Assembly: GCA_020073665.1 (NCBI GenBank)
Contig: JAIQEU010000015.1
Location: forward strand, 1 to 64,000
From: Terriglobia bacterium
GTDB taxonomy: Bacteria; Acidobacteriota; Terriglobia; Terriglobales; Acidobacteriaceae
Length of the DNA stretch: 64,000 bases
Direction: 5' to 3'
The notes beneath the pieces are model-generated. The model saw only the letters and a program-made list of their open reading frames with translations. It did no database searches and was not told the DNA's origin. Position numbers and translations under genes: made by a program. Positions 52,686 through 63,589 of this stretch are shown piece by piece (positions within the stretch are counted from its first letter, which is position 1; every line of letters begins with the position of its first letter).

Positions 52686-52997
52686 CCGCCAGAACCTCGT
52701 AACCGCTTCTTAGAGTAAGGATATGCGCATCCGGCTCGGTGCGCAATGGCACCAAACTGCCATGCCGGAAACCGCGCAACCGAAGGCTTACCAAAGAGCA
52801 TAGTCGCAATGCCGCCCTTTCGTGTGGCTGGGAAGGTTGCGATTGGGTAAGAACCGCTGTAACTTACAGAGTAATCGGCCGATATCGTTAGCAGCCAGAC
52901 TCCCCCACAGCGGGGGGGGTACGCAAGTCGTGAATTGACAAGCGCTTTACTCGTGAAAGAATCACGACTGGCAGTTCAGAAAGTTGTTTAGCTTTTC
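52686..52997. other. Intergenic region before the GAF-amidase gene
   Basis: About 310 bases without a gene. It contains a G-run hairpin (five C, five-base loop, G run, near 52900-52919) and, at the right end, the promoter and inverted repeat listed separately. Confidence 0.5.
52926..52969 (+). promoter_or_regulatory. Promoter framed by an 8-bp inverted repeat
   Basis: TTGACA (52935-52940) and AAGAAT (52957-52962) are 16 bases apart. AGTCGTGA (52926-52933) and its exact complement TCACGACT (52962-52969) flank the promoter, one arm just outside the -35 and the other overlapping the -10 end and the probable start point. This is a plausible operator for the GAF-amidase gene 29 bases downstream. 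Confidence 0.55.
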
Positions 52998-55205
52998 ATG
53001 AGTGCGAACCCGACCAACGCGAGCCTGGAGTTGGCCAAGCAGACCATGGGATTGGCCGTGCCCGAGGGTTCGCGCCCTGTGGCCCCGGGATTTGAGGCGT
53101 TGCAGGCACTGCTGGCCTTCTCTTCCCTGCACGAGCAGATTCGGCAACGCCGCGCCCGCGAAATGCGCAACGGCGCACGTTTGAGTCCCGAAGACGCCTG
53201 GGAGCTCGAGCAGTTTGTTCTGGATGACGTGCTGCAACTGGTGGCCGAGCGTGCCTTGGCGCTGACTGGCTGCGACGGGGTGGCCATTGCCTTGGCCGAA
53301 GGTGACGAAATCATCTGCCGGGCTTCGTCGGGAGAGATCGCTCCGGACGCGGGAGCGGGGCTGGATCCCAACTCCGGCTTTTCCGGTGCTTGCCTACGAA
53401 CCGGCCACATCATCCGCTGCGATGATACCGAGAACGACCCGCGGGTCAACGTGCAGGCTTCCCGCCGACTGGGAGCACGCTCCATGGTGGCTGTGCCGCT
53501 GGCTGGCCAGCAGGGAGCGATCGGCCTGATCGAGGCCTTCTCCTACGATGCGCACGCCTTCAACGACAGTGACGTCCGCAGCTTGAATCTACTGTCTGAG
53601 CTCATCCTGTCAGCGCTGCGGCCGGAGGAAGAAGACCGGCTGGCCCAAGTCTCGCAACAGGTAGTGGCCCGAGCGGTGCTCCCCGAGCCTGCATGTGAGC
53701 CCGCGACTGCGTCGCCCGACGCCGAATCCGAAATTGCGGTTCCTTGCGAACTCGAAGCCAGCGACAACGGGGTACCTTTTTCCGGACCGGCCCCATTCGC
53801 CGAGTACGCACGCACCCAAAGTTCAAGGCCCGGCCTATTCGTGGTGTTTGCGGTGGTGCTATTCGCCATCGCGGTGGGCGCGGGAGTGTGGTGGACAATC
53901 CAGCATAAGGCACAGCCGGTAAAAGCCGTTGTTCCGCAAGCGGCGCCAGCCCCAGCCGCTGCTCCGCCCCCGGCCGCGAAGGCAACCACTGCCACTTCAC
54001 CGGAAGAACCGCCGCTTCCAGTTCCGACCGAACCGGCCAACAGCAGCTCGGCCGTCAAAGCCAAGCTGGCGGTGTTGCCGCAAGTTACTGGAATCCGGCA
54101 CTGGTCGTCCGCCGATGCCAGCACTGTCGCCGTGGACCTCCAGGATCAGGTGCAATACGAAGCGCACCGCTTGACCGATCCGGAGCGAATCTACATAGAC
54201 TTGCACGACACCGGCCTCTCGCCCGGACTGTTTGGGAAGACGATTGAGGTTGGCGATGGCCTGCTGTCCCGGGTTCGAATCGCCCAGCCGATGCCCGGCG
54301 TGACCCGCGTGGTTCTGGAGACCAAGGGCGGAGCAAACTTCTCCGTCAGCCTGGAGCCAAATCCTTATCGCCTGGTAGTGGAAGTTCGCGGCATAAACGC
54401 GCCGCCTAAGCCGCGCGCCAAGGTCGAATTGTTTGGGCCGGCGAATCCGTCCCAGGCAAAGACTGCGGCCCCGGTGAAGGTTTCGAGCGATGACCAGAAG
54501 CTCCGCGCCCAAGTTCCGAAATTCCGCATCGTTCTCGACGCCGGACACGGCGGCTGGGACCTGGGAACCGTAGGCCGCCAGGGTCTGCTCGAAAAGGACC
54601 TGGTGCTCGACATCGTCGGCCGGCTCGGTGAGTTGGTCAGCAAGCGCCTGGGCTCGGAAGTGATTTACACCCGTCAGGACGACAACTACGTCGCGCTGGA
54701 GAAGCGGGCTGAGATTGCCAACCAGTCGCAGGCCGACTTGTTCCTGTCGGTACACGCCAACTACAGCGTGCTTCCTTCCGCCCGTGGAGTTGAAACCTAT
54801 TACACCAATACCTTCTCCTCGGTCCACGCCCACACCAGAGACGCCGACAGTCCGCTGCAGAACGTGAGTTTTGCCAATGTGGACATCCGAGAGAAGGTAC
54901 AAGAGTCGCACCGCTTCGCAGCCAGCGTGCAGCGCGCGCTGTACGGCGCCCTGGCTTCGAAGAACTCGGGCATCCGCGACCGGGGCGTGAAAGAAGCTTC
55001 GTACGTGGTGCTGACCGGGACCTCGATGCCGGCGATTCTGGCGGAAGTTTCCTTCGTCAGCAGCCCCACCGATGAGCAGAACCTGCAGAGCTCGACCTAC
55101 CGCCAGCAGATTGCGGAGGCTTTGTATAAGGGTGTGGCGCGCTATGTGGCCACATTCCACAAAGTGAAGATGGCTAGCGCGGCGGCCAAGCCATCGTTAC
55201 GCTAG
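52998..55205 (+). CDS. GAF-TM-AMIN-Amidase_3 fusion: cell-wall amidase with a cytoplasmic sensor domain
   Basis: A 735-residue protein with four parts in order. Residues about 60-215 are a GAF domain (ALTGCDGVAIALAEGDEI, FSGACLRTGHIIRCDDTEND, LGARSMVAVPLAG). After a low-complexity stretch, one membrane helix (GLFVVFAVVLFAIAVGAGVWW, about 278-298) crosses the membrane. Residues about 363-470 are an AMIN domain (VTGIRHWSSADASTVAVDL, RIYIDLHDTGLS) that binds peptidoglycan or septal partners. Residues about 509-720 are an Amidase_3 domain with complete zinc and catalytic residues: VLDAGHGGWD, LLEKDLVLD, FLSVHANYS, AILAEVSF. The GAF end lies in the cytoplasm and the amidase in the periplasm, so an intracellular signal could control wall cleavage. 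A promoter inside an inverted repeat lies just upstream. Confidence 0.92.
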   Translation: MSANPTNASLELAKQTMGLAVPEGSRPVAPGFEALQALLAFSSLHEQIRQRRAREMRNGARLSPEDAWELEQFVLDDVLQLVAERALALTGCDGVAIALAEGDEIICRASSGEIAPDAGAGLDPNSGFSGACLRTGHIIRCDDTENDPRVNVQASRRLGARSMVAVPLAGQQGAIGLIEAFSYDAHAFNDSDVRSLNLLSELILSALRPEEEDRLAQVSQQVVARAVLPEPACEPATASPDAESEIAVPCELEASDNGVPFSGPAPFAEYARTQSSRPGLFVVFAVVLFAIAVGAGVWWTIQHKAQPVKAVVPQAAPAPAAAPPPAAKATTATSPEEPPLPVPTEPANSSSAVKAKLAVLPQVTGIRHWSSADASTVAVDLQDQVQYEAHRLTDPERIYIDLHDTGLSPGLFGKTIEVGDGLLSRVRIAQPMPGVTRVVLETKGGANFSVSLEPNPYRLVVEVRGINAPPKPRAKVELFGPANPSQAKTAAPVKVSSDDQKLRAQVPKFRIVLDAGHGGWDLGTVGRQGLLEKDLVLDIVGRLGELVSKRLGSEVIYTRQDDNYVALEKRAEIANQSQADLFLSVHANYSVLPSARGVETYYTNTFSSVHAHTRDADSPLQNVSFANVDIREKVQESHRFAASVQRALYGALASKNSGIRDRGVKEASYVVLTGTSMPAILAEVSFVSSPTDEQNLQSSTYRQQIAEALYKGVARYVATFHKVKMASAAAKPSLR

Positions 55206-61954: not shown

Positions 61955-63589
61955 CTATTGGCGCTTGGGAACGGGCAAATTGTTGGCCAGTTGATGCTGC
62001 TTGATCCAATCGTTGGCCTGTTGCTGGGCTGCCAGAACCTGAGCTCGGCTCATCCGCGAAGCCAGGACCGCGACCCGGTACTTGCTGGCTTGATCTCCAC
62101 CCGCCTGGGCCAGGACCGACCAGAAGTAGGCTTTGCCCAAATCCTGCGGCACACCGCGTCCCGCCCAGTAGTACGCGCCCAAGGTGGCTTGCGAGATGAC
62201 GTGTCCCTGCTCGGCGGCCATCGAAAACCAGCGGACGGCCTCGGCGTAGTCCTGCGCAACGTCTTCCCCGGTGGCGTATTTCGCACCCACCGCAAATTGT
62301 GCGGCGGCGTCACCCTGCTCTGCCAGTTTGCGCAAGCCGTCCAGATCGGTGGGCGCATCCACTGCAGGCGGCGCCTTGGAGGCCACCTCCTGCGGCGCCG
62401 GCGGCGACGCAGGTGGACTCGCGGCCGGCCGCACTCGCACACGCGGGATCAACACCCAAAGCAACGCGAACGCCAACGTGGCAGCGGCCACCACGAGGAT
62501 AGCGCGGTGCACCCAAGCCCATGAGGATGGCGTGGCAAGGACCTCTTCGGAGTCATGGGAAGAGGCCACGCGGGGGGACGTCGCGGGAGCCTCCGCATGG
62601 GTCGCCCGGTTTACCGCTGCCAGTACGGTTTCCGCCAGGCGTTGCAGTACGACGTCATCGCTGTGATTGAAAGCATTCGCTGCCGGTGAAAAAACCTCCA
62701 GCAGGCCCAGCACGTGTTCGCCCATGCGGATCGGCACGGCAACCATCGACCGGATCCCCAAAGCGCTGCAGCTTTCCCGGTCCACTCGCGGATCGGTTTC
62801 GCTGTCGTCGCAGCGCAGCAAGCGGCCGGTGCGGGCGCACTCCCCGGAAAAACCCTCTCCTACCTGCAGCCTGGTGCCGACGCCGGGAGCATCGGAGCCG
62901 GCGCTGGCCACGCAGATCATCTCCGGCCCCTGCGACAACGCAATCGCCGCCCCGCTGGCATGGGTAAACGCCAGAGAACGTTCTGCAATCAGTTGCAGGG
63001 CGGTGTCCAGGTCGGGCCCCACGGCCGCTACTTCCCGCTTGACCGCGGCCAAGCCAGCCAGGACTGCGGTGTAATCCGAAGCAACCGGAGGCTCGCCCGC
63101 TGCCACAGCCGCAGGCACAGGACCACTAGGAAGTACCTCTTCGAAGGACGGCGGGACCGGAGCCTCGGCATCGGCCGGTGGCGGCAGTGCCGCGTGATTG
63201 GCGCTGGCAATCATTGCATTCAGGAAAAGCCATTCCTTGAGTTGCCGCCGCGACGATTCGGCCATCTCGGGGAACCGGATTCCCGTACGCCCCGACCGGT
63301 CTGACCACACGACATGTCCAGTGGTGTAGATGAAGCCCTTGGTCTCTGAAAGATCCAAGCACAAACTAATATCCTGCTGTAGGGCCGGTGGAGGCAAAGC
63401 TTGAATGGAGGCGCCGTCCTCGCTGATGTCTAGAATCTCGCTCAGGTCGAGCACCATCCCGGTCGAATTTCCGTTCAAGCTGGCGTAGGCAGGGGTATGC
63501 ACCTTATGTCGTACCCGCCGGCGACGCTCGCCCGTGGCGGGTTTCAGGTCCCGGTAGGTCTCATCCCGCTTGGTTCCAGGGGTCTCCAT
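61955..63589 (-). CDS. PilZ-GAF-TM-Sel1 fusion protein
   Basis: A 544-residue protein. Residues about 21-125 are a PilZ domain with both c-di-GMP motifs (RRRVR and DISEDG); a helix SSRRQLKEWLFLN follows. Residues about 175-330 are a GAF domain with GFSGECARTGRLLRCDDSET and LGIRSMVAVPIRMGE, the same subfamily as the amidase fusion. One membrane helix (WVHRAILVVAAATLAFALLW) and a Pro/Ala linker precede two Sel1-like repeats (WFSMAAEQGHVISQATLGAYY), which bind partner proteins. The soluble sensor part is thus cytoplasmic and the Sel1 part periplasmic. No catalytic domain is seen; it looks like a signal-transducing scaffold. Confidence 0.92.
   Translation of the reverse strand: METPGTKRDETYRDLKPATGERRRRVRHKVHTPAYASLNGNSTGMVLDLSEILDISEDGASIQALPPPALQQDISLCLDLSETKGFIYTTGHVVWSDRSGRTGIRFPEMAESSRRQLKEWLFLNAMIASANHAALPPPADAEAPVPPSFEEVLPSGPVPAAVAAGEPPVASDYTAVLAGLAAVKREVAAVGPDLDTALQLIAERSLAFTHASGAAIALSQGPEMICVASAGSDAPGVGTRLQVGEGFSGECARTGRLLRCDDSETDPRVDRESCSALGIRSMVAVPIRMGEHVLGLLEVFSPAANAFNHSDDVVLQRLAETVLAAVNRATHAEAPATSPRVASSHDSEEVLATPSSWAWVHRAILVVAAATLAFALLWVLIPRVRVRPAASPPASPPAPQEVASKAPPAVDAPTDLDGLRKLAEQGDAAAQFAVGAKYATGEDVAQDYAEAVRWFSMAAEQGHVISQATLGAYYWAGRGVPQDLGKAYFWSVLAQAGGDQASKYRVAVLASRMSRAQVLAAQQQANDWIKQHQLANNLPVPKRQ

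Follow-up and report, generated by a model that had tools for sequence, protein, structure and literature searches.

Division amidases are dangerous enzymes, and their known control in Gram-negative bacteria acts from the periplasm. AmiA, AmiB and AmiC of E. coli are exported by a signal peptide. All three are autoinhibited by a blocking helix, and LytM activators release the block (PMC10268282). In AmiA, Glu167 of this helix is bound to the zinc and holds the enzyme inactive, while an adjoining interaction helix serves as the docking site for the LytM activator EnvC (PMC10268282). Amidase_3 enzymes that do not have a blocking helix are active by themselves (PMC8496864). Here, we characterized a locus in a 64,000-nucleotide stretch of DNA from a Terriglobia bacterium (the window) that encodes an amidase of a different layout, carried by one soil-dwelling lineage of acidobacteria. 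The reading frame starts with the ATG at 52998; the start at 52926 given in an earlier note is the position of an inverted repeat ahead of the gene (Table 1).

Table 1. Features of the amidase locus and its surroundings (window positions)
Feature	Position	Strand	Details and evidence
Upstream box CTTACCAAAGA, conserved	52787–52797	+	Homologous upstream regions
Conserved promoter-like element TTGCGA-17-TAACTT	52837–52865	+	About 130 nt before the start codon
Inverted repeat on both sides of the second promoter; no conservation, near-chance frequency	52923–52972		Arm search, homologue alignment, genome count
Second promoter-like element TTGACA-16-AAGAAT (the promoter of the earlier note)	52935–52962	+	Consensus-like; AATTGACA common to several homologues
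CDS, GAF-TM-AMIN-Amidase_3 protein, 735 aa	52998–55205	+	ORF call, Pfam, 48 homologous ORFs with identical order
N-terminal helix, conserved, aa 32–58, consensus DALQALLAFSALHEQ, runs into GAF	53091–53171	+	AlphaFold2 helix; columns A34–R49 near-invariant
GAF domain, aa 75–207, signature C-D-D-x-E-x-D-x-R-V	53220–53618	+	Pfam, alignment, fold match
GAF-TM linker, aa 232–277, disordered, length differs among homologues	53691–53828	+	pLDDT < 50
Single membrane helix, aa 278–304	53829–53909	+	AlphaFold2 pLDDT about 90; hydrophobic peak in 48/48 homologues
TM-AMIN linker, aa 306–348, disordered, Pro/Ala-rich	53913–54041	+	pLDDT < 50
AMIN domain, aa 366–465	54093–54392	+	Pfam; pLDDT about 95
Amidase_3 catalytic domain, aa 511–714	54528–55139	+	Pfam; zinc ligands H517, E532, H586, catalytic E683; fold match
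Regulatory insert, aa 603–626, degenerate, without AmiA-type blocking and interaction helices	54804–54875	+	Alignment; pLDDT < 50, no helix
PilZ-GAF-TM-Sel1 protein, separate gene, GAF module common with the amidase	61955–63589	-	About 52% identity in GAF

Architecture and distribution of the GAF-type amidases

Pfam and AlphaFold2 placed a GAF domain, a membrane helix, an AMIN domain and an Amidase_3 domain in this one reading frame, confirming the single chain proposed in the earlier note. The Pfam matches were GAF_2 (7.3e-16, 59.1 bits against a cut-off of 28.6), AMIN (PF11741, 4e-11, 43.3 bits against 20.5), placed before Amidase_3, and the whole Amidase_3 domain (PF01520, 5.8e-48, 163.7 bits against 27). 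The protein scored below the cut-off of the NCBIfam AmiC model NF038267 (131 bits against 700). In the AlphaFold2 model, built on an alignment of 37 homologues, the three domains and the membrane helix were ordered, with segments of pLDDT below 50 between them; all such segments comprised residues 1–28, 232–277, 306–348 and 475–503 and, within the amidase domain, 603–626 and 668–675. The 27-residue membrane helix coincided with a hydrophobic peak (mean hydropathy 2.5). All amidase ligands are intact, as had been noted earlier: the three zinc ligands are invariant in 37 sequences, and the glutamate expected to be catalytic, E683, is present. The closest amidase folds included, at Z 22, 4rn7, 5emi (AmiC2) and 8c2o.

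The GAF domain matched solved GAF domains with Z about 14–17.6. The best match was 4mmn (Z 17.6), and the fold was nearest to free methionine sulfoxide reductase and GAF sensors. Three of its residues, C141, D147 and R149, are invariant in the 37 amidase-type sequences, and C141 is invariant as well in a GAF alignment of 27 rows, the other fusions among them. In the free methionine-R-sulfoxide reductase (fRMsr) TafRMsr, Cys84 and Cys60 are the catalytic and the second essential cysteine (PMC6211008). C132 and position 155 of the window protein are possible counterparts, lying at about the spacing of the fRMsr cysteines. No fRMsr was found among the sequence matches at E ≤ 1e-6. The reductase activity raised by the fold match is doubtful for the window protein, because its position 155 is Ser.

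The same domain order was recovered by a search for like architectures, which yielded 48 verified ORFs from Terriglobia (Acidobacteriota), in each of which a hydrophobic helix separates GAF from amidase. This set joins contig-scan relatives and whole-genome loci, and some of its members are one gene from two collections. Scanning genome contigs yielded 24 relatives with matches to both the GAF and the amidase part; they came from metagenome assemblies of Terriglobia/Acidobacteriota, among them Candidatus Sulfotelmatobacter. Pfam confirmed the order in six further members. In a phylum-wide sample of 396 genomes, a near-full-length match occurred only in the genome of the window and one other of its family, and a third genome carried a divergent version. 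The latter protein (L037:220-2646) has the same four-part order with GAF at its extreme N-terminus and a regulatory insert that is almost wholly deleted; it is possibly an independent fusion. The head was strongly matched in about 90 of 398 genomes of the family, mostly in ORFs longer than 690 aa.

The gene neighbourhood, retained in many loci, runs in the order epimerase, PilZ-receiver protein, PilZ-RDD protein, small protein, amidase gene, S9 peptidase, radical SAM and PilZ-GAF-Sel1. Since the domain order is kept in 48 ORFs as an unbroken chain and in conserved synteny, a fusion artefact of two separate genes was ruled out. The literature searched, which covered few subscription papers, held no relevant paper linking GAF with AMIN or Amidase_3. 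The domain combination is real and conserved, with no description found in the searchable literature.

The GAF and membrane helix head is a reused lineage module. Its GAF subfamily is expanded in the genome of the window, where eight proteins carry it: the amidase, PilZ-GAF-TM-Sel1, PilZ-GAF, two GAF-TM-TonB_C proteins, a GAF protein with a C-terminal hydrophobic helix, and others. A second GAF protein adjoins PilZ-GAF-TM-Sel1 beyond 63700 on the minus strand and runs past the window end. In the GAF-TM-TonB_C fusions (L100:1300-2781 and L101:1285-2706), a TonB-like periplasmic end is set on the GAF head. Three relatives encode GAF-TM-AMIN proteins of 530–568 aa that end after AMIN with a clean stop (L105:358-1947, L106:401-2104 and L107:482-2125), and no amidase remnant was found within 0.8–0.95 kb downstream of these genes. 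The otherwise invariant C141 is missing from two of the three. These amidase-less proteins would be natural candidate partners of the enzyme. In the GAF tree, in which several rows labelled 'unk' are cut copies of one gene, all amidase heads but that of L037, whose branch was very long, grouped together (94/94); the tree was too weak to show whether the head arose from the PilZ-GAF-TM-Sel1 gene nearby.

The upstream region

The pattern of the conserved promoter-like element was present in 27 of 34 upstream regions compared with a mean of 0.8 (maximum 5) in shuffles, a contrast inflated by mononucleotide shuffling and by the relatedness of the sequences. At locus L014, the element lies 37 nt before the ATG. 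A 13-nt palindrome, CTGTAACTTACAG (52857–52869), overlaps the element in the window and is only partly kept in homologues. The distance from the upstream box to the promoter is 49–50 nt in the window; six homologous loci, including a near-identical pair, show that same distance, and two others have 38–39 nt, a shift of about one helical turn. This spacing provides a lead for an activator site.

The earlier note had read an inverted repeat around the second promoter as a sign of tight transcriptional control. The repeat exists (arms 52923–52933 and 52962–52972, 11 nt with one mismatch) and does frame a consensus-like promoter, but its role as a control element was not confirmed. It was found in none of nine aligned homologous upstream regions and occurs once in the 5.42-Mb genome. 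In the 64-kb window, perfect 8-bp arms at 20–40 nt spacing numbered 23 compared with about 20 by simple expectation, and 11-bp arms with no more than one mismatch numbered 19 compared with about 11. A conserved operator at the repeat was rejected on these grounds. The proposed regulator recognising AGTCGTGA/TCACGACT is likewise unsupported: the left arm together with the -35 element (≤2 mismatches) occurs 22 times elsewhere in the genome and 16 times for a reversed control, counts that are not far apart.

The regulatory insert and control of the enzyme

The other AMIN-amidase of the window's genome, L001, contains an AARENA segment that aligns with EREN of AmiA; counting from His65 of AmiA, the last Glu of EREN, which is the Glu of REN, falls at position 167. 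All 28 non-GAF acidobacterial amidases contained the motif [AST][ASE]REN, whereas not one of the 34 GAF-type amidases did. REN alone is kept in the insert region by five of the 34, and part of the blocking helix may survive in some of these members. The GAF-type insert is a short disordered stretch, variable in length and composition, and the segment that forms the interaction helix in the AmiA/B/C type is replaced by a short variable stretch. AlphaFold2 predicted two helices in the L001 insert (108–118 and 122–133, moderate confidence) and no helix in that of the window protein.

In the tree, a branch with 100/100 support sets the GAF-type amidases apart as one clade, which places the gain of the head and the loss of this latch on one branch. 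The two changes count as one correlated event rather than many independent ones, and they may be unrelated to each other. Because the blocking and interaction helices are lost in the clade, LytM (EnvC/NlpD)-type activation is unlikely for GAF-type amidases, as judged from alignment and predicted structure. Their activity is probably controlled otherwise than in the known division amidases, and another inhibitor could exist.

Flanking charge averages about 0 (0.1) ahead of the membrane helix and +1.8 behind it, so the positive-inside rule gives no support to an N-in/C-out orientation. That orientation is supported by TonB_C and AMIN, both of which are periplasmic domains. Together with the missing N-terminal signal, the peptidoglycan-acting C-terminal domains and the TonB_C parts of sister proteins point to GAF in and amidase out, in agreement with the cytoplasmic GAF domain suggested earlier.

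With moderate confidence, we favour a tethered amidase that has lost its latch, would be independent of an activator and would be controlled by placement or clustering and by transcription. A cytoplasmic GAF head would be connected, through a flexible linker and a single membrane helix, to the periplasmic AMIN and zinc amidase, and AMIN would serve as the periplasmic targeting domain of a lineage-specific, membrane-tethered peptidoglycan amidase. Having lost the blocking and docking helices, the amidase would need no EnvC/NlpD-type activator to be catalytically competent. Its control would then act on the position and density of the enzyme through the membrane tether, AMIN binding, and GAF dimerisation or ligand binding, with transcription as a further layer.

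Two other explanations were weighed. The GAF domain might bind a cytoplasmic ligand, with a conformational change through the membrane helix switching the amidase on or off. The GAF-TM-effector order kept in 48 of 48 ORFs and the clear GAF fold are in line with such a switch, and the absence of the periplasmic latch leaves room for it; however, GAF-to-TM spacing ranges from 47 to 175 aa among homologues (median 93.5), the model shows disorder in both linkers next to the helix, and Pfam showed no HAMP or other connector domain in the window amidase. Given these linkers and this spacing, we doubt a rigid switch across the membrane, consider tethering or clustering through the GAF domain likelier, and regard ligand switching across the membrane as unlikely. 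Of the cytoplasmic switching proposed in the earlier note, the departure from switching from outside is strengthened by the lost latch, but a direct conformational relay is weakened. The head could also be a passive scaffold left by domain shuffling, performing no sensing in an ordinary membrane-anchored amidase. It does occur with many different partners, and at position 155 the window protein carries Ser, against Cys in 30 of 37 homologues, so some residues are dispensable; yet the GAF core is strongly conserved while the linkers drift, and a mere anchor needs no such core. The probability of this explanation is also low.

Beyond the favoured tethered amidase, we put forward only tentatively, as rather improbable, that a cytoplasmic signal read by GAF directly governs the periplasmic amidase within one polypeptide and takes the place of the FtsEX-EnvC/NlpD relay; the amidase-less GAF-TM-AMIN paralogues of some relatives would be regulatory partners through GAF dimerisation. 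Loss of the latch and gain of a cytoplasmic sensor-type domain in one chain offer a testable alternative for cytoplasmic control of wall cutting. The locus also draws attention to a GAF-TM head that is reusable among Terriglobia proteins, other members of which carry TonB_C or Sel1 parts.

Comparison with described systems

The window amidase shares the AMIN and Amidase_3 folds and the zinc ligands with E. coli AmiC, AmiA and AmiB (AMIN-Amidase_3 or Amidase_3; 4bin, 8c2o), and the catalytic core is similar. It differs from them in the GAF and membrane helix head and in the lost regulatory insert, which bears out the unusual order and the departure from AmiC-type enzymes claimed in the earlier note. 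Nostoc punctiforme AmiC2 (5emi) and CwlV (1jwq) are among the closest folds and, like the window amidase, are Amidase_3 enzymes without a blocking helix. To our knowledge, neither has a GAF domain or a cytoplasmic head. Both are active on their own (PMC8496864).

Within the same genome, the L001-type amidase (C27; TPR-AMIN-Amidase_3) shares AMIN and Amidase_3 with the window protein (53% identity in the amidase); in contrast, it has no GAF domain and keeps the blocking and interaction helices. The GAF-TM-TonB_C and PilZ-GAF-TM-Sel1 proteins carry a GAF domain of the same subfamily (about 44–52% identity) followed by one hydrophobic helix, and differ from the amidase in their C-terminal effector. 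S. aureus LytH-ActH and C. difficile CwlD-GerS also combine Amidase_3 with control that does not use a blocking helix of its own (for CwlD, PMC8496864). LytH and CwlD are controlled by separate membrane or lipoprotein partners, whereas the window amidase carries a fused GAF domain, predicted to be cytoplasmic.
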